Below, piece after piece: positions 3,793 through 42,443 of a stretch of 64,000 nt of DNA. Position numbers and translations under genes: made by a program. Position 1 is the stretch's first letter, and each line of letters opens with the position of its first letter. Source of the DNA: Tsuneonella suprasediminis (GTDB taxonomy: Bacteria > Pseudomonadota > Alphaproteobacteria > Sphingomonadales > Sphingomonadaceae). The notes beneath the pieces were generated by a model, which saw nothing but the letters and a program-made list of their open reading frames with translations, made no database searches and was not told where the DNA came from. The DNA is taken from positions 134,331 to 198,330 of the forward strand of contig NZ_RAHJ01000019.1 in assembly GCF_003605755.1 (NCBI RefSeq). Direction: 5' to 3'.

Positions 3793-5114
3793 GTCATCGC
3801 CTCATCGAGCAGAGCTTCGAATGCCGGGAAGCTGGTGGCGATGGGTCGGGTATCGTCGATCTCTACCCCTTCTTTCGTGACCAATCCGGCGATTGCCATG
3901 CTCATGGCGATGCGATGGTCGAGATGGGTGATAACCGGTGCGCCGATCGTGCCGCGCAATGGTTCCCCGCCTGACCCGTCGATAATCAATCCATCTGCGG
4001 TTTCTTCCACCCGTGCGCCTGCGGCGGTGAGGGCGGTGGCCATTGCGGAAAGACGATCGCTTTCCTTTACGCGCAACTCGTCGAGACCACGGGTAACGGT
4101 GCGTCCGTTCGCCAATGCGGCGGCCACGAACAGTACCGGGAACTCATCTATCATTGATGGCGCCACTGCCGGATCGACATCGATGCCACGCAATTCAGCG
4201 TGGCGGACACGCAAGTCAGCAACCGGCTCCCCGCCAACTTCGCGGGCGTTTGTTTCTTCGATGTTGGCCCCCATTTCGCGGAGCACTTCGACCAGTCCGG
4301 CGCGGGTGGGGTTGAGGCCAACGTTTTCTATCAGCAGGTCGCTACCTTCGATCAGGCTGGCGGCGACCATGAAAAATGCGGCCGAGCTGGGGTCGCCCGG
4401 AACCTCTATTCGCTGGGGCGTCAACTCTGCCTGACCGTGAACGCGAATCACGCGTTCGCCCGCTTCTTCCCCAACATCAACCTGCGCGCCAAAGCCACGC
4501 AACATGCGTTCGGAATGATCGCGGGTTGGTACTGGTTCGATCACGGTCGTAATTCCGAGCGTATTCAGCCCCGCAAGCATAATCGCGCTTTTCACCTGTG
4601 CGCTGGCAACGGGCAGCTGGTATGAAATCGGGACGGCCGGTTCCGCTCCGGTCATCATCAGTGGCAAAGTGCCGCCGGGAGAGGTGGTGAACGTGGCCCC
4701 CATCGCAGACAGTGGATCAATTACGCGGCCCATCGGACGTTTTGAAAGGCTGGCGTCTCCAGTGAAATTCGCAGTAATTGCGTGGCTGGCAATCAGGCCT
4801 ATCAGCAGTCGGGTCGATGTACCGGAATTGCCCATCTCCAGCGCCGAATCGGGTTGCAGCAGGCCGCCAACGCCAACACCGTGAATACGCCATTCAGCGC
4901 CGGTTTTCTCGACATGTGCACCCATTGCCCGCATCGCGGCGGCGGTGGCCATCACGTCCTCGCCTTCGAGCAGGCCGGTTACCCGCGTTTCGCCAACGGC
5001 CATCGCGCCCAGCATAACCGAGCGATGACTGATCGATTTGTCTCCGGGGACACGGAGGCGGCCTGTCAGGGGGGCAGTGGCTGTGAAGCGGCGTGGTGTG
5101 GGGTTTTCGTTCAC
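3789..5114 (-). CDS. aroA: 3-phosphoshikimate 1-carboxyvinyltransferase (EPSP synthase)
   Basis: Joins shikimate-3-phosphate and phosphoenolpyruvate in the shikimate pathway. Family signatures are present: the N-terminal PGDKSISHRSVML, LEMGNSGTSTRLL (PEP/S3P site, NSGT), and the C-terminal RVKESDRLSAM. I chose the GTG at 5114, giving 441 residues, the usual length; the frame is open to 5231 and an upstream start would add about 39 poorly conserved residues. The sequence NSGTSTRLLIGL around the PEP site resembles the glyphosate-tolerant class II-type enzymes of alphaproteobacteria, but that class cannot be fixed by eye. First gene of the aroA-small membrane protein-cmk operon. Confidence 0.95.
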   Translation of the reverse strand: MNENPTPRRFTATAPLTGRLRVPGDKSISHRSVMLGAMAVGETRVTGLLEGEDVMATAAAMRAMGAHVEKTGAEWRIHGVGVGGLLQPDSALEMGNSGTSTRLLIGLIASHAITANFTGDASLSKRPMGRVIDPLSAMGATFTTSPGGTLPLMMTGAEPAVPISYQLPVASAQVKSAIMLAGLNTLGITTVIEPVPTRDHSERMLRGFGAQVDVGEEAGERVIRVHGQAELTPQRIEVPGDPSSAAFFMVAASLIEGSDLLIENVGLNPTRAGLVEVLREMGANIEETNAREVGGEPVADLRVRHAELRGIDVDPAVAPSMIDEFPVLFVAAALANGRTVTRGLDELRVKESDRLSAMATALTAAGARVEETADGLIIDGSGGEPLRGTIGAPVITHLDHRIAMSMAIAGLVTKEGVEIDDTRPIATSFPAFEALLDEAMT

Positions 5115-5298
5115 GGATGATCCGACTGTATTGAATATTTGCAATGCGCGCGGCTCTTTGACAGCGCCCATGCCGTGTGGCAAGGCGCGCGCGCTTTTCA
5201 CGGTGCCACTTGATTCAGGGTCTATTCGCACCCATCAAGCAGCCACGGAATTAAACGCCTGATGCCATAAGGTATCGAGGCCAAGCCAAGGACAGACA

Positions 5299-5619
5299 AT
5301 GGTCAAGCCAGAGTGGGGCACCAAGCGTTCGTGCCCCAAGTGCGGTGAACGCTTCTACGATCTCGGCAAGGACGAGCCGGTGACGTGCATCGAATGCGGC
5401 GAGGAATGGTTCCCTGAGCCGGTGCTCAAATCCAAGCAGCCGATTCCGTTCGAGGAAGAAAAAGAGAAGAAGGACAAGGAAGCCGATAGCGACCTTGCGG
5501 ACGACGATCTGGAAGACATCGACGAAGATGATGATTCGCCGGATAATGACGTCGATCTGGGCGGCGATGACGACCTTGGTGTTCAGACCTCTTCGGACGA
5601 TGATGACGACGATAATTGA
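5299..5619 (+). CDS. TIGR02300-type FYDLN-acid zinc-ribbon protein
   Basis: 106-residue protein with an N-terminal zinc ribbon (C12-x2-C15 ... C30-x2-C33) containing FYDLGKDEP, the family's FYDLN-type signature with Gly in place of Asn, and a highly acidic tail of Asp/Glu runs from about residue 50. The family is typical of alphaproteobacteria and commonly sits divergent from aroA, as here. The role is unknown; a small zinc ribbon with an acidic tail could bind a basic protein or compete with nucleic acid, but that is inference. No poly-T terminator was seen before the tRNA downstream. Confidence 0.88.
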   Translation: MVKPEWGTKRSCPKCGERFYDLGKDEPVTCIECGEEWFPEPVLKSKQPIPFEEEKEKKDKEADSDLADDDLEDIDEDDDSPDNDVDLGGDDDLGVQTSSDDDDDDN

Positions 5620-5728
5620 TTTCGCCCTTGCATTGGTGGGGCGTGGCTCATAAAGGGCGCGTCCTGCCAGTCACCCGCGGTTGCGGATTTGATGGGCAGG
5701 CCGACTTTGGTCGGTAGATGAATGGTAC

Positions 5729-5804
5729 GGGGCCTTAGCTCAGCTGGGAGAGCGCCTGCATGGCATGCAGGAGGTCAGCGGTTCGATCCCGCTAGGCTCC
5801 ACCA
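5729..5804 (+). tRNA. tRNA-Ala (anticodon GGC)
   Basis: 76 bases including an encoded CCA. Acceptor arm GGGGCCT pairs with AGGCTCC; D-arm TTAGCTCAGCTGGGAGAGC; anticodon stem CCTGC/GCAGG with loop ATGGCAT giving anticodon GGC; T-arm with GGTTCGATCCC. Reads GCC (and GCU) alanine codons. Confidence 0.97.
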
Positions 5805-5924
5805 TTCAAGGTTTGAAAAAGTCGGTTCCGTTTCAGGGTCCGCACGCTGGCCGACGAGGTTTCGTCCGCCGGCGTTTTTGGCATTTGGCGATATTCCGTC
5901 GCCGCGAGTGGAGTGAACGAGCGC

Positions 5925-7397
5925 ATGTTCGACAACCTGTCCGACCGCCTCGGTAACGTATTCGACCGCCTGCGCGGCCGTGGCTCGCTGAACGAAGCCG
6001 ACGTTCGCGAAGCGATGCGCGAGATTCGCGTCGCCTTGCTGGAAGCGGACGTGGCGCTGCCGGTGGCACGACGGTTTATCGATGCGGTGACGGAAAAGGC
6101 CGTGGGGCAGGATGTGCTCCGCTCGGTCACTCCGGGGCAGCAGGTCGTCAAGATTGTCCATGACGAACTGGTCGAAATGCTCGGCGGGCAAGAACATCAG
6201 GGGCTGTTGCTGGAGGCGAAGCCCCCGGTTGTGGTGATGATGGTCGGCCTGCAGGGTTCGGGTAAGACGACCACGACTGCCAAGCTGGCCAAATACATTC
6301 GCGAACGCCACGGCAAGAAAGCGATGATGGCATCGCTCGACGTTGCCCGGCCTGCCGCGCAGGAACAGCTCGCTGTTTTGGGTGAGCAGGTCGATGTCGC
6401 CACTCTGCCGATTGTCAAAGGGCAGCAACCGGTCGACATCGCGCGCCGGGCGATCGAATCGGCAAAGTTGCAGGCAGTCGATGTCCTGATGCTCGACACC
6501 GCCGGTCGTCTCCACGTCGATCAGGCGTTGATGGACGAGATGAAGGCGGTCGCTGCCGTTTCCAGTCCGACCGAAGTGCTGCTGGTGGTCGATTCGCTGA
6601 CCGGGCAGGACGCCGTCAACGTCGCGCAGAGCTTCAGCGGCGAAGTTCCGCTGACCGGCGTGGTGCTGACCCGGATGGATGGCGATGCGCGTGGCGGTGC
6701 GGCGCTGTCGATGCGGGCCGTTACCGGCAAGCCGATCAAGTTCGCCGGTACCGGTGAGAAACTCGACGCGATCGAAGCATTCCATGCCGGGCGTGTTGCG
6801 GACCGTATCCTCGGCATGGGCGACGTTGTCAGCCTGGTCGAAAAGGCGGCGGCGACGGTCAAGGAAGAAGAGGCCGAACACCTCGCCAAACGTATGGCGA
6901 AGGGGCAGTTCGATCTTAACGATCTGAGAATGCAGCTGCGCCAGATGCAGAACATGGGCGGTTTGGGTATGCTCGCCGGGATGATGCCGGGCATGAAGAA
7001 AGCCAAGGCAGCAATGGCGGAAAGCGGGATGGACGACAAAGTGCTCGTCCACATGGATGCCATCATCGGTTCGATGACCGCGAAGGAACGCGCCCGCCCC
7101 GAACTGATGAATGCCAAGCGCAAGAAGCGTGTGGCCGCCGGATCGGGTACGCAGGTTCAGGATGTGAACAAGCTGCTCAAGATGCACCAGGAAATGGCGC
7201 GGGCGATGAAGCAGATCAAGAAGATGGGCGGCCTCAAGGGGCTGGCTGCCATGTTCGGCGCTGGTGGCGGCGGGGCAGGCGGCATGGGCGGGCTTGGTGG
7301 CCCTGGCGGTGCAGGTGCGCCACCTTCGCTCCCCGGACTGGGCGGGATGGGCGGCAATATGCCGTCTAACCTGCAGGATTTGATGAAAAAGAAGTAA
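5925..7397 (+). CDS. ffh: Signal recognition particle protein Ffh (SRP54)
   Basis: GTPase that binds signal sequences and 4.5S RNA and delivers nascent membrane proteins to FtsY. NG domain: N-terminal helical bundle, P-loop GLQGSGKTTTTAK (about residues 108-120), DTAGRLH, and TRMDGDARGG. The M domain follows from about residue 320 with many Met residues (MQNMGGLGMLAGMMPGM), and the tail is a Gly/Met-rich low-complexity stretch. I chose ATG 5925 (MFDNLSDRL), the usual family N-terminus, giving 490 residues, with GGAG at 5910-5913; a GTG at 5913 would add four residues. It is followed within 34 bases by rpsP, a conserved order. Confidence 0.97.
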   Translation: MFDNLSDRLGNVFDRLRGRGSLNEADVREAMREIRVALLEADVALPVARRFIDAVTEKAVGQDVLRSVTPGQQVVKIVHDELVEMLGGQEHQGLLLEAKPPVVVMMVGLQGSGKTTTTAKLAKYIRERHGKKAMMASLDVARPAAQEQLAVLGEQVDVATLPIVKGQQPVDIARRAIESAKLQAVDVLMLDTAGRLHVDQALMDEMKAVAAVSSPTEVLLVVDSLTGQDAVNVAQSFSGEVPLTGVVLTRMDGDARGGAALSMRAVTGKPIKFAGTGEKLDAIEAFHAGRVADRILGMGDVVSLVEKAAATVKEEEAEHLAKRMAKGQFDLNDLRMQLRQMQNMGGLGMLAGMMPGMKKAKAAMAESGMDDKVLVHMDAIIGSMTAKERARPELMNAKRKKRVAAGSGTQVQDVNKLLKMHQEMARAMKQIKKMGGLKGLAAMFGAGGGGAGGMGGLGGPGGAGAPPSLPGLGGMGGNMPSNLQDLMKKK

Positions 7398-7430: not shown

Positions 7431-7892
7431 ATGGCAATTGCAATCCGTCTGTCGCGCGGTGGCGCGAAGAAGCGTCCTTATTACCGCATCGTCGTGTCGG
7501 ACTCGCGTTCGCCGCGTGACGGTAAGTATCTGGAACAGATCGGCACCTACAATCCGTTGATCGCCAAGGGCGACGAAAACCGCGTGAAGATTGACAGCGA
7601 CCGTGCGAAGCACTGGCTTTCGGTTGGTGCCCAGCCGAGCGACCGCGTTGCTCGTTTCCTTGATGCTGCCGGCATTCGTGAGCGCGCTGCCCGCAACAAC
7701 CCGAAGAAGGGTGAGCCGGGCGAAGCTGCCAAGGCTCGTGCAGAAGAAAAGGCTGAGAAGGCTGCGGAAGCCGCTGAAGCTGCCAAGGCAGCTGAAGCAG
7801 AAGCCAATGCACCGGCTGAAGAAGCTGCAACCGAAGAAGCCGCTGCCGAAGCGCCCGCCGAAGCTGCTGGCGAGGAAAAGGCTGAGGGCTGA
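7431..7892 (+). CDS. rpsP: 30S ribosomal protein S16 with a long Ala/Glu tail
   Basis: Ribosomal protein S16. The N-terminal 80 residues are the canonical domain ([22 protein letters not shown]). It then carries about 60 extra residues of Ala/Glu/Lys low complexity ending at residue 153, where E. coli S16 has 82. Such tails occur in several alphaproteobacteria. First gene of rpsP-rimM-trmD-rplS; rimM starts 3 bases after its stop. Confidence 0.96.
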
Positions 7893-9130: not shown

Positions 9131-9492
9131 ACCTGATCCAGCAGCTCGAGGCGGAAGCCATCGAAAGCCTTGCCGAAGGCAAGGACATTCCCGAATTCCG
9201 CGCCGGCGATACCGTCCGCGTGGGTGTGCGCGTTGTCGAAGGCACACGCACACGTACCCAGAACTTCGAAGGCGTGTGCATCGCGCGTTCGAACCGGGGC
9301 ATCAACAGTAATTTCACCGTCCGTAAGATGAGCTTCGGCGAAGGTGTGGAGCGTGTTTTTCCGCTCTATTCGCCGAACATCGAAAGCATCACCGTGGTTC
9401 GCCGCGGTGTCGTGCGCCGGGCGAAGCTTTATTATCTGCGCGGCCGCACCGGCAAGCGCGCCCGTATCGCAGAGCGGCGCGAGAACGCCTAA
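9127..9492 (+). CDS. rplS: 50S ribosomal protein L19
   Basis: Large-subunit protein at the interface with the 30S subunit. 121 residues, normal length, with characteristic [28 protein letters not shown] and the C-terminal [18 protein letters not shown]. The GTG start lies within the trmD stop (GTGA). Last gene of the operon, followed by a strong terminator. Confidence 0.97.
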
Positions 9493-37983: not shown

Positions 37984-38775
37984 TTAGTCGGGTCGGTAAT
38001 CCCGTATGGCCTTCTGGTCCAACTCGTTTGCAGGAATGAGTCGATAATGACGCTCGTCAACTATCTTAACTTCTTCTCTCTGAATGGTCAGGTCGAATAA
38101 TGCGACGGCACCATTATCCATGAATTGCGCTGAAACTGCTTTGCAACGCATTTCGGGAAACTTACTTTCCGCAAACCTGATATCCTGTGTGGTTTGCACA
38201 ACGCCAATTTGATCTTTTCCGCCTTTGGCTTGCACGGGAATGATATAATGGCAGCCATACGTATCAATTCCAATATATAGCTCGTCGATCTCAATTTGGC
38301 CGATGCCTTTTACAGAGGTGCGGAGATGATTCTGTAAACTGTAAGTTGTTAGGCTGAGGAAGGTGTCGAGCAATCTATTGTAGCGAAGTATTGCAAGCAA
38401 AGCTTGCTCGTCATCAAGGGCGTAGGCGCGAATTATTTCAGGAGTAGCATCCGGTATTGCGATCTCGGCTAAATTTGGATTGGGTAATATCCTTGTGGCC
38501 GGGACCAACTTGAACCGGTATTTCGATCTGCCTGCGCCTTCAATAATCCATTCTTTCCCTGTCGGCTGCGTTGCTTGAATTTTCTCGGGTAGTGCCCGCC
38601 GGTAGCGATATGAATATGGAACATCGCCTGGATTAAGATCTAGATCGGGAGCAAGTTGCTCCTTGGCTGCTATGATTTCTCGACGAATGAATACAAATTC
38701 GGCATGGTCGTTTTGGTAATGATCGAGAAATATTTTCTCTATGATGCGGTCGTAAGCGCCTTTGTCTTTAGCCAT
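37984..38775 (-). CDS. Restriction endonuclease, PD-(D/E)XK-like with a Q-x-K site
   Basis: 263-residue protein, the likely nuclease partner of the adjacent cytosine methyltransferase. A candidate catalytic core has D164 in IEIDELYIGI, then a beta-strand with Q182-A-K184 (IIPVQAKGGKDQIG), which fits the PD-(D/E)XK fold with Gln in place of Asp/Glu; upstream E40 or E75 could complete the site. Known restriction nucleases with QxK exist, but I cannot name this family or its target. ATG 38775 overlaps the methyltransferase stop by 8 bases. Low GC, unlike its neighbours. Role by context is strong, by sequence moderate. Confidence 0.75.
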   Translation of the reverse strand: MAKDKGAYDRIIEKIFLDHYQNDHAEFVFIRREIIAAKEQLAPDLDLNPGDVPYSYRYRRALPEKIQATQPTGKEWIIEGAGRSKYRFKLVPATRILPNPNLAEIAIPDATPEIIRAYALDDEQALLAILRYNRLLDTFLSLTTYSLQNHLRTSVKGIGQIEIDELYIGIDTYGCHYIIPVQAKGGKDQIGVVQTTQDIRFAESKFPEMRCKAVSAQFMDNGAVALFDLTIQREEVKIVDERHYRLIPANELDQKAIRDYRPD

Positions 38776-40099
38776 TTGACCTTCTCAGTTCTATTTCTTT
38801 TTCTATCTCTTCTTGTTTTCGTTTCTTTGATCCACTTTTCATATTTCTCTTGGATGGTGGAGCCTCGATTCCAAAATATGTGGCCGCATCCCTTACGGTC
38901 ATACGGAGAAGTTTTTCGTCCCCTAAAGGAACTGATTGTGCCGAAGAATTGAGAATGTATCCGCCGCAACGCCATACCTCGCTTGCGATGGCACGCGCCA
39001 ATGGAGGTGGCACCGAATTGCCGATCTGCCTAGCGCCGTGCCATTTCGTTTCGTTAAAACGAAACCAGTCGGGATAACCATGTAAGCGCGCCATTTCCCG
39101 AACGGTTACGCAACGATTGTGCTCTGGATGGATTGGGCGGGGGCTTGTAAATGCACCCCTTGCTCCGTCAGTGCCGGCACGAAGGGTGTTACTCAAGCCC
39201 TCAGGGTGGAGCTTGTAAAACCGCGAAATTGGTTCGGTTTCTCCGCCTGCCGTTTTCGAAAAGCGGCGGCGAGAAATTTCGGTGTGTTCGGTCCTTGCAC
39301 TCGAAGTCAGCAAGTTTGGGTTCCACTCTCGGACTTCTCCGCGATGCCAAGCCGAATTCGTTCGGCAGCGCATTTCAAACGCGTAAGTCGAGCCCGCGCC
39401 CCACTTTGTAAAAGTCACTTCATCAGTGCTTCGAAGCTCTTCAAATCCCTCCGCGTCTGGAATGTCGCTCAAGGCATCGGAGACAGTAGGGCCTTTGGGC
39501 AGGCCCTTAAATACTTTCCGCTTTCCATCAGCCGGATTGGTCCAAGGCGCTGGATAATCCGGTAGATTCTCCCCTTTTTGCGCACCGAATAAGATTAGGC
39601 GCTCTCGATGTTGGGGAACCGAGTAATTCGCAGCATCGAGAACCTGCCACGGTTTCCGAACTTCATAGCCAAGTTCATCGGCGTATTCGATAAATTCATC
39701 GAGGAATTTTCGGTGTTTCCCGACCGTTAGCCCTTTCACGTTCTCAAATACGAAATAAGTAGCGTCTAGTTCTGACACTATGCGTAGGAAGTCGCCCACG
39801 AGGCGATTGCGCGGATCGTCGAGTACACGCTGCCCGATCATTGAGAAGCCTTGGCAAGGTGCGCCTCCGAAAACCACGTCGACTGTGCGGTTGCCCAAAC
39901 CTGCTGCAACGCGGATTTCGCTACCCTTCAACCCTTCGACCGAGCGTGGGATTACGGAGCATTTGGGGAAATTAAACTTGTGGGTGGCGCAATGGACAGG
40001 GTCGATTTCCACAGCAGCTTTCACGTCGAAACCTGCCTGTTCGAAGCCTAGGCTCATTCCGCCAGCACCGGCAAATAAGTCAATTGCGATAGGGCGCAT
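38768..40099 (-). CDS. DNA (cytosine-5) methyltransferase
   Basis: 443-residue type II modification enzyme from ATG 40099. All key motifs are visible: I DLFAGAGGMSLGFEQAGF, IV with catalytic C82 in GGAPCQGFSMIG, VI FENV (E119-N120-V121), VIII QHRERLILFG, IX TVREMARLHGYP and X GNSVPPPLARAIA. It would place 5-methylcytosine in an unknown site and protect DNA from the downstream nuclease. An extra basic C-terminal tail (KRKQEEIEKEIELRR) follows motif X. Low GC; flanked by vsr and the nuclease gene. Confidence 0.94.
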   Translation of the reverse strand: MRPIAIDLFAGAGGMSLGFEQAGFDVKAAVEIDPVHCATHKFNFPKCSVIPRSVEGLKGSEIRVAAGLGNRTVDVVFGGAPCQGFSMIGQRVLDDPRNRLVGDFLRIVSELDATYFVFENVKGLTVGKHRKFLDEFIEYADELGYEVRKPWQVLDAANYSVPQHRERLILFGAQKGENLPDYPAPWTNPADGKRKVFKGLPKGPTVSDALSDIPDAEGFEELRSTDEVTFTKWGAGSTYAFEMRCRTNSAWHRGEVREWNPNLLTSSARTEHTEISRRRFSKTAGGETEPISRFYKLHPEGLSNTLRAGTDGARGAFTSPRPIHPEHNRCVTVREMARLHGYPDWFRFNETKWHGARQIGNSVPPPLARAIASEVWRCGGYILNSSAQSVPLGDEKLLRMTVRDAATYFGIEAPPSKRNMKSGSKKRKQEEIEKEIELRRSNG

Positions 40100-40144
40100 A
40101 ATTAGTTCCTCTGCCTGCACGACGCCGGAACGTTAGCAGAACAT

Positions 40145-40573
40145 TTAGTGGCTGTCGATCGCTTTCTGGGGTCCGAGAAAATTCCGCAATTTTTCTGCAA
40201 GAATTTGAAAATCCTTGAGTTCACACTGCCAAACTTCTTCGACTTGCCAGCCAATCCTCTCCAATTCGAACCTATTTCTAACATCGCGCTCACGGTTTCG
40301 CTCAATCTTGGGAAGCCAGAATTCCAGATTCGATTTTGGCGGTTTTCCAATTTTGCAGCCGTGACCATGCCAGTAACATCCGTGCACAAAGATCGCTTTC
40401 TTGCGACCGATGAAAACAATGTCCGGTTTGCCCGGTAGCTCCCTTCGGTGCAGTCTAAAACGATATCCCATGCGGTGAAGCAGAGTGCGTACAGCGAGTT
40501 CGGGCTTAGTATGCTTTGAGCCGATCCGCGACATCAACCTACTGCGACTATCTTTCGTGCGGTTATCCACCAT
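40145..40573 (-). CDS. vsr: Very short patch repair endonuclease Vsr
   Basis: 142-residue T:G mismatch nickase that corrects deaminated 5-methylcytosine made by the accompanying methyltransferase. Using ATG 40573 the catalytic residues fall at the same numbers as in E. coli Vsr: E25 (KPELAV), D51 (PGKPDIVF), H64 (FVHGCYWH), H69 and H71; the E. coli Thr63 is Val here. The match in numbering supports this start; a GTG at 40621 would add 16 residues. First gene of vsr-methyltransferase-nuclease, 45 bases before the methyltransferase. Confidence 0.92.
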   Translation of the reverse strand: MVDNRTKDSRSRLMSRIGSKHTKPELAVRTLLHRMGYRFRLHRRELPGKPDIVFIGRKKAIFVHGCYWHGHGCKIGKPPKSNLEFWLPKIERNRERDVRNRFELERIGWQVEEVWQCELKDFQILAEKLRNFLGPQKAIDSH

Positions 40574-40656
40574 ATGGTCAAGATAGGTGCCTGGCTCGAA
40601 AGTTCGATGAAAATTCACCACCTCCCAGTGCGTGGCTTTCTCCGAAAGCTAAACCT

Positions 40657-41496: not shown

Positions 41497-41639
41497 GATG
41501 GCAGGCTCCTTTATTGCGACTGGGCGAAGGTGGCGGGGCGGTCTGATGCACATTTTACACCGTGTAGGAAAATGAACGGTGGGTGATGGCAATAACTTCA
41601 CTTTGCGTTCACGTACGCGCTGGCTATAGGCGTGGCCCT

Positions 41640-42443
41640 ATGCAGATCGTTTCACGCAGCCCGCTCAAGCTCGCTCTCGTCGCCGCAGTGGTCGGTTCTT
41701 CGCTGGTCGTAACCGGGTGTGCCGGGAGCGGGGGCAAGCCCAAGGATACCGCCTACGTCGCCCGCGATGTGGAGACGTTGTATAATTCGGCGAAGGATCG
41801 CCTCGACCGCGGCCAGCCCAAGCTCGCCGCCGCCCTGTTCGACGAGGTGGAGCGCCAGCACCCCTATTCACCGTGGGCGCGGCAGGCACAGTTGATGAGT
41901 GCGTTCAGCTACTACGTCGCCAGCGATTACAACAAGGCGATCGGCAGCGCGCAGCGATTCCTCTCGATCCATCCGGGCAACAAGGATGCGCCGTACGCGT
42001 ATTACCTGATCGCGCTGAGCTATTACGAACAGATCAGCGACGTAACCCGCGATCAGAAAACCACCGAACAGGCCCGCGCTGCCTTGCGCGAAGTGGTCCG
42101 CCGCTATCCGGCGACCGACTATGCCACCGACGCGCGGCTGAAGCTCGATCTGGTGGAAGATCACCTTGCGGGCAAGGAAATGGAAATCGGCCGCTATTAT
42201 GAAAAGAGCGGCAAATGGCTGGCGGCGTCGCTGCGGTTCCGCAACGTGGTCGATAATTTCCAGACCACCAGCCACGCGCCGGAGGCCCTGTTCCGCCTGA
42301 CCGAAACCAATCTGGCGCTCGGCATTCCCGAAGAGGCGAAGAAATACGCCGCTGTGCTGGGTGCCAACTATCCGGGCAGCGAGTGGTATGCCAAGGCGTA
42401 CAAGCTGATGGAAAAGTACGCGCCAGACGCCAAGGCGAGCTGA
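41640..42443 (+). CDS. bamD: Outer membrane assembly lipoprotein BamD
   Basis: Essential component of the BAM complex that folds outer-membrane proteins. 267 residues from ATG 41640. Signal peptide with lipobox VTGC-AG, then five TPR-type repeats, starting with DVETLYNSAKDRLDRGQPKLAAALFDEVERQHPYSPWARQAQLM; the remaining repeats include the YLIALSYYEQISDVTRDQ motif typical of BamD. An in-frame ATG at 41583 is upstream of the signal peptide and unlikely. Confidence 0.94.
   Translation: MQIVSRSPLKLALVAAVVGSSLVVTGCAGSGGKPKDTAYVARDVETLYNSAKDRLDRGQPKLAAALFDEVERQHPYSPWARQAQLMSAFSYYVASDYNKAIGSAQRFLSIHPGNKDAPYAYYLIALSYYEQISDVTRDQKTTEQARAALREVVRRYPATDYATDARLKLDLVEDHLAGKEMEIGRYYEKSGKWLAASLRFRNVVDNFQTTSHAPEALFRLTETNLALGIPEEAKKYAAVLGANYPGSEWYAKAYKLMEKYAPDAKAS

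Follow-up and report, generated by a model that had tools for sequence, protein, structure and literature searches.

An RshI/Rsp241I-type restriction-modification cassette in Tsuneonella suprasediminis with a predicted CGATCG-cutting endonuclease

Known CGATCG systems and the Tsuneonella cassette

Methylation and restriction at CGATCG are known from Cereibacter sphaeroides 2.4.1. This motif is the sole m5C motif in the methylome of the strain and was assigned to the methyltransferase M.Rsp241I; PacBio detected the signal at ~5% of these sites, and for the motif the authors refer to a determination made separately (PMC6256690). The restriction enzyme RshI, an isoschizomer of PvuI, was purified from the same strain (PMC6256690). 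The accessible text of a second study reports CGATCG methylation at 184 of 2,152 sites in strain 2.4.1 (there R. sphaeroides), with 132 of 144 for the enzyme-cleavable form, mentions that strain CH10 is also CGATCG-methylated and places Rsp241I among the characterised restriction endonucleases whose site equals the methylation motif (PMC8112702). The RshI site is printed as CGAT|CG in the available part of a paper on another restriction-modification system (PMC11473606). According to the excerpted text of PMC12619356, rshI mutants show a better uptake of foreign genes; the same text names RsaI as the PvuI isoschizomer and RshI as an EcoRI isoschizomer, in conflict with PMC6256690.

PvuI and XorII, the latter from Xanthomonas oryzae, resemble these systems by their site, CGATCG, and XorII also by its methyltransferase. 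XorII was reported with a vsr homologue, as far as can be judged from the title of Choi and Leach (1994) cited in PMC4853030. In the accessible portion of PMC4390886, M.XorII falls into a single group with the cyanobacterial methyltransferases that produce m5C at CGATCG. M.Ssp6803I performs C5 methylation of the first C in CGATCG and, unlike the Tsuneonella enzyme, is described in the available sections of PMC6604393 as standing outside any restriction-modification system; PvuI is, according to the same source, blocked when CGATCG carries m5C. DmtC and the methyltransferases of cyanophages belong with M.Ssp6803I in a related comparison group. The methyltransferase of Anabaena phage A-1(L) is 36% identical to the Tsuneonella one and differs in its TRD (10/33). 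The protein gp44 of Mycobacterium phage Cueylyss (L215, 2950-4269) is a methyltransferase 56% identical to the Tsuneonella one, with no annotated restriction nuclease adjoining, and may shield the phage from restriction at CGATCG; we found no literature on this phage. Two further papers proved, in their accessible parts, to deal with another system (PMC3346939) and with a different motif (PMC12907096), and the available portion of PMC4081073 holds nothing on the present endonuclease family.

The window that we analysed is a stretch of 64,000 nucleotides from Tsuneonella suprasediminis. Three of its minus-strand genes form a cassette that reads, from 40621 to 37984, vsr, methyltransferase (M) and endonuclease (R):

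40145..40621, minus strand: gene for a Vsr-type T:G mismatch endonuclease (TIGR00632, E = 8.4e-44, above the cut-off)
38768..40120, minus strand: C5-cytosine DNA methyltransferase of the M.Rsp241I family (PF00145, E = 3.2e-64), with predicted CGATCG methylation
38768..38775, minus strand: overlap of 8 bases between the methyltransferase stop and the endonuclease start
37984..38775, minus strand: Type II restriction endonuclease of the RshI/Rsp241I family (263 aa, ATG start), with predicted site CGATCG

The overlap, already noticed in the original prediction, was confirmed from the ORF coordinates. The methyltransferase starts with GTG at 40120 in the ORF list; its C. sphaeroides homologue starts, by alignment, at an ATG corresponding to residue 8 here, and this ATG is, from the alignment, the likelier start. 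The methyltransferase is the sole PF00145 match in its genome. Since the G+C content of the cassette (0.461 for the endonuclease, 0.522 for the methyltransferase and 0.484 for Vsr) is below that of two of its neighbours, lepA (0.608) and the gene at 41583-42443 (0.614), and since the endonuclease gene was found in only one of 11 genomes of the genus, that of the window itself, the cassette was probably acquired recently and inserted beside lepA.

Two 20,000-base stretches of the genome of one relative (G709) match plasmids of C. sphaeroides 2.4.1, CP030274 and CP030275 being among these, at 100% identity from end to end. In this genome, that of strain 2.4.1, the endonuclease match is at position 884,964 on a contig of 943,018 bases. 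The corresponding cassette (locus L241) presents the same vsr, methyltransferase, endonuclease order with, again, an 8-base M/R overlap (locus positions 7802-7809), and it contains the only PF00145 match of the genome. Between the window and C. sphaeroides 2.4.1, the endonucleases are 50.2% identical over 261 columns (E = 4.8e-79), the methyltransferases 64.4% over 444 columns and the Vsr proteins 53.8% over 143 aa. Both endonucleases match the PADLOC model PDLC03404 (Type II restriction enzyme) almost end to end (residues 4-261, E = 9.8e-121, for the window endonuclease), and PDLC03326 is the best match of both methyltransferases. The C. sphaeroides nuclease also shares the E-x-D and Q-A-K residues discussed below; it differs by an ORF 22 aa longer (285 versus 263).

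The same arrangement recurs in other relatives. Endonuclease relatives are encoded at 194 places in the GTDB genome contigs, of which we kept the best 80 (58-75% identical). These numbers and the E-value of the PDLC03404 match rule out a chance feature. A recognisable methyltransferase lies within the DNA covered at 77 of these best 80 loci, with M always preceding R on the same strand (77/77), and the two genes overlap by exactly 8 bases in 66 of the 77; one locus has a 1,324-base gap. A Vsr homologue was found at 46 of the 77 loci, directly upstream in 33 by the criterion used, some loci being shortened by contig ends. The 8-base M/R overlap also occurs in the Klebsiella plasmid pB1019. Gene order and homology thus support the original view that the endonuclease is, most likely, the cognate partner of the C5 methyltransferase.

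Recognition site and CGATCG avoidance

From the single m5C motif of C. sphaeroides 2.4.1, its sole PF00145 match and its being the source strain of RshI, we infer that RshI is the product of the endonuclease gene in the C. sphaeroides cassette. Compared part by part with M.Rsp241I (the borders being our own reading of the alignment), the window methyltransferase is identical at 127 of 183 positions in the N-terminal catalytic part, at 52 of 100 in residues 193-293 and at 36 of 43 in residues 294-336, which form the conserved portion of the target-recognition region. Because the homologous 2.4.1 cassette acts on CGATCG and the recognition core is so well conserved, the site of the window system is predicted to be CGATCG; on these sequence comparisons, the endonuclease would cut CGATCG unless it is m5C-methylated. 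The endonuclease had been described in the original prediction as having unknown specificity and as a candidate new prototype. The first claim gives way to the homologous M.Rsp241I/Rsp241I (RshI) system, which acts on CGATCG (PMC6256690; accessible text of PMC8112702), and the second does not hold either, since that system is already known and makes the site predictable.

An identity of 50% between restriction endonucleases is, by itself, no guarantee of a same site, and one could imagine a cognate Type II endonuclease whose recognition site is shifted or new, all the more as the methyltransferase is less conserved in residues 193-293. We consider this improbable. With 84% identity to M.Rsp241I, residues 294-336 surpass the catalytic part, which argues for a conserved specificity.

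Avoidance of the site, expressed as the ratio of observed counts to those expected from a maximal-order Markov model, bears on the same question. The ratio for CGATCG is 0.53 in the window genome, 0.48 in five other carriers pooled and 0.58 in carrier loci (loci of at least 10 kb only, 52 of 80), versus 0.77 in 14 alphaproteobacterial non-carriers. Of all patterns, CGATCG shows the most consistent depletion in carriers (6 carriers and 52 loci, with a score that demands depletion in all three carrier sets). A larger test, with five more carriers and 16 Paracoccaceae controls, placed CGATCG first among 376 patterns, with pooled ratios of 0.50 versus 0.73 and medians of 0.46 versus 0.55 (11 carriers, 28 controls); it contains the carriers of the first test, so that the two tests are not independent. 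Four of 20 Paracoccaceae control pieces (<8,000 bases) were dropped from it, as were, for each pattern, genomes with an expected count <5 (2 of 30 controls for CGATCG). The avoidance gives weak support for the site, because the difference (Mann-Whitney p = 0.01, uncorrected) is not significant once corrected, several Paracoccaceae non-carriers avoid CGATCG as strongly as carriers and, in the window, the 49 CGATCG sites match the 51.1 expected from dinucleotide shuffles. Palindrome avoidance in the pooled flanks alone was not specific.

When the window genome was compared with five family members, CCWGG ranked first for depletion. In the window-genome sample (393 kb, including the window), the ratios are 0.47 for CCWGG, 0.44 for TGCGCA and 0.45 for GCCGGC, versus 0.75, 0.99 and 0.74 in the five family members. 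These sites are thus depleted as much as or more than CGATCG in this comparison, as a shifted specificity might predict. Among the five other carriers, however, it is CGATCG that is lower than in the non-carriers, whereas CCWGG, TGCGCA and GCCGGC are not (pooled ratios of 0.78, 1.10 and 0.78, versus 0.79, 0.94 and 0.77 in the 14 non-carriers). Single carriers vary, with a ratio of 0.16 for GCCGGC in one of them (G051). The sole PF00145 methyltransferase of the window genome, if specific for CGATCG, does not account for the depletion of these three sites, which possibly reflects lost restriction systems.

The explanation that best joins these data, and which we hold with high confidence, is that of a horizontally acquired Type II endonuclease of the RshI/Rsp241I vsr-M-R type, predicted to cut CGATCG by means of a PD-(D/E)XK-like core.

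Active site and predicted fold

The window endonuclease has no match in Pfam or NCBIfam, and none among PDB sequences, whether it is queried singly or as an alignment profile. A Pfam scan of 42 aligned family members returned two families, with one member each. By sequence, the family thus appears to consist of restriction enzymes without a Pfam entry and without a detectable solved relative. We found no report of a solved structure for a CGATCG cutter in the accessible texts of the literature searched.

The residues D164, Q182, A183 and K184 are all found at the positions given in the original prediction. Together with E162, E165, G186 and D188, they are invariant in an alignment of 96 sequences. 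In a larger set of 124 distinct homologues covering residue 184 (including the window endonuclease itself), D164 is present in 121 (one Gly, one Ser and one not covered), K184 in 123 (one Cys), E162 in 122 (one Lys and one not covered) and E123 in 120 (one Thr and three not covered). Position 182 is Gln in 118 and Ser in 6 of the 124, the acid of a literal (D/E)xK being absent. The row with Lys-162 and Ser-164 corresponds to locus L125, read beyond an apparent frame change, and the row with Gly-164 and Cys-184 to a homologue from genome G862.

The best of five AlphaFold2 models built from the 96 sequences has a mean pLDDT of 89.3 (range 79.0-89.3). The predicted elements are a helix (123-132), a short helix (135-140), three strands (143-155, 159-170 and 176-184), a helix (192-205) and a strand (213-218). 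E162 and D164 lie on the second of the three strands, Q182 and K184 on the third and E123 in the first helix. The model thus points to a PD-(D/E)XK-like core with a Q-x-K variant, in agreement with the original prediction, with middling fold matches. Foldseek retrieved nothing at E ≤ 0.001, the first row being the AdnAB nuclease complex (5.0e-3). The top VIA-align matches are EndoMS (Z 8.3, rmsd 2.9 over 95 residues), a Pyrococcus repair endonuclease that we take to be NucS (8.0) and RPA0323 (7.8), followed by Holliday junction resolvases (7.2 and 7.0); according to the tool, models that lack a clear match typically reach a best Z of 7 to 8, and 8.3 is hardly higher. The closest solved folds to the model, over residues ~117-245, are thus those of EndoMS, archaeal Hjc and Cas4-family nucleases, with Z values of at most 8.3 and no sequence match.

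The original prediction had singled out the replacement of the usual acid of (D/E)xK by Gln. The D164...Q182-A-K184 core is indeed there, but the replacement itself is no novelty. In the accessible texts, Gln or Asn in place of the acid is a listed variant of the PD-(D/E)XK superfamily (PMC1189080), PD-QxK is published for Mrr and MspJI (PMC12707154), PD-QXK is given for the Mrr catalytic domain (PMC11037411) and D-X(10-12)-QxK for BisI enzymes (PMC4926085). These Mrr, MspJI and BisI groups share the D...QxK pattern with the window endonuclease and are described as modification-dependent. Eight Mrr_cat domains that we aligned have invariant D23, Q39 and K41; they had been chosen by their D...Q-x-K pattern from 11 scanned loci, of 19 places returned. 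Given this common pattern, the window protein could be imagined to be a modification-dependent nuclease (Type IV, Mrr/MspJI-like) that cuts methylated DNA. The comparison of the 96-sequence endonuclease alignment with the eight Mrr_cat domains by hhalign gave, however, a Prob of 0.4%, over nine columns around VQAK, and PF04471 (Mrr_cat) does not match the window endonuclease. Moreover, the endonuclease lies downstream of a C5 methyltransferase on the same strand at every one of the 77 loci, with the exact overlap in 66, and a nuclease directed against this methylation would kill the cell that encodes it. We therefore regard a Type IV enzyme as extremely improbable.

Could the Q-x-K core be instead a loss-of-function change, in a decayed and inactive endonuclease beside an active methyltransferase? 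Decay does occur among relatives. The G862 homologue (L248, 4856-5572) lacks both D164 and K184, and its genome has no PF00145 match; it is a decayed orphan nuclease. The endonuclease gene of L073 is broken near its 3' end, its two parts (6001-6708 and 9198-9281) being separated by ~2.5 kb, and L125 shows the apparent frame change mentioned above. The absence of D164 and K184 from homologues, proposed in the original prediction as a sign of loss of function, thus exists, but both residues are missing in one sequence of 124, this orphan. The window ORF, in contrast, is intact and full-length, with the invariant residues of the 96 homologues in place. The C. sphaeroides nuclease has Q-A-K as well, and its strain is the one from which the enzyme RshI was purified (PMC6256690); the Mrr, MspJI and BisI groups furthermore have PD-QxK sites that are described as catalytic in the accessible parts of the papers cited above. 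Decay of the window enzyme is, accordingly, very unlikely.

An active CGATCG endonuclease being preferred, we can propose how the cassette may work. The endonuclease would most likely bind CGATCG and cut it with Mg2+ (at CGAT|CG, as RshI), with D164 as a putative metal ligand and K184 as the candidate catalytic lysine. Because Q182 is uncharged and replaced by Ser in a sister clade, the second carboxylate would probably come from E162, which precedes D164 by two residues on that strand, with a possible contribution of E123 in the first helix. The adjacent C5 methyltransferase would protect the host by methylating CGATCG, and Vsr would repair the T:G mismatches arising from deamination of the CGATCG 5-methylcytosine.

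The S-x-K sister clade and the spread of the cassette

Six distinct homologues combine E-x-D with S-x-K and are 28-33% identical to the window endonuclease. Five of them (L102, L235/L249, L236, L237 and L238) are encoded tail to tail with methyltransferases that are 63-65% identical to that of the window. The sixth is located on the viral contig L084 (2817-3623; overlapping copy in L109), beside two remnants of a methyltransferase C-terminus. The same contig carries, ~0.5 kb from the S-x-K nuclease, an intact Q-type vsr-M-R cassette (4136-6771), as if one CGATCG cassette had replaced another. If both L084 nucleases are active, the sole intact methyltransferase there must protect against both, which suggests that the two share a site. 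Since either Gln or Ser is tolerated at residue 182, this residue is, from the aligned sequences, unlikely to be an obligatory metal ligand. A broader scenario, which we put forward tentatively and with some doubt, is that the second metal carboxylate has moved from (D/E)xK to E162 of E-x-D, leaving position 182 free for Gln or Ser; in that case, the CGATCG cutters would make up a fold family as yet uncharacterised by structure, in which the Q-x-K clade (co-oriented with M) and the S-x-K clade (tail to tail) are sisters that share a site and replace one another.

Counting weak and partial matches, the sampled frequency of the endonuclease is 9 of 289 genomes in the class, 5 of 398 in the phylum and 21 of 394 in the family of G656, the sample that yielded C. 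sphaeroides 2.4.1. We detected no match to the window endonuclease among phage records. Plasmid records matching it number 66, with 39 from Klebsiella and 17 from Salmonella by name, and 57 of the 66 are typed mobilizable. Small plasmids, many of them 4-6 kb long, carry the M-R pair in Klebsiella, Salmonella and Citrobacter, with no vsr in their (incomplete) gene table. Two such plasmids (L103 and L104) are typed ColRNAI, one of them being a 15.7-kb E. coli plasmid with Tn4401 and blaKPC-3.

The window endonuclease is thus an ordinary addition to the already known CGATCG systems of the RshI/PvuI type, with an active site in which the Gln/Ser position could help to decide which residues hold the metals. 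The cassette extends over the Alphaproteobacteria, and Klebsiella and Salmonella carry it on small plasmids, most of them mobilizable. An apparent orphan specificity becomes a testable prediction, CGATCG, and plasmids meant for hosts of the cassette should be free of CGATCG or methylated at it.
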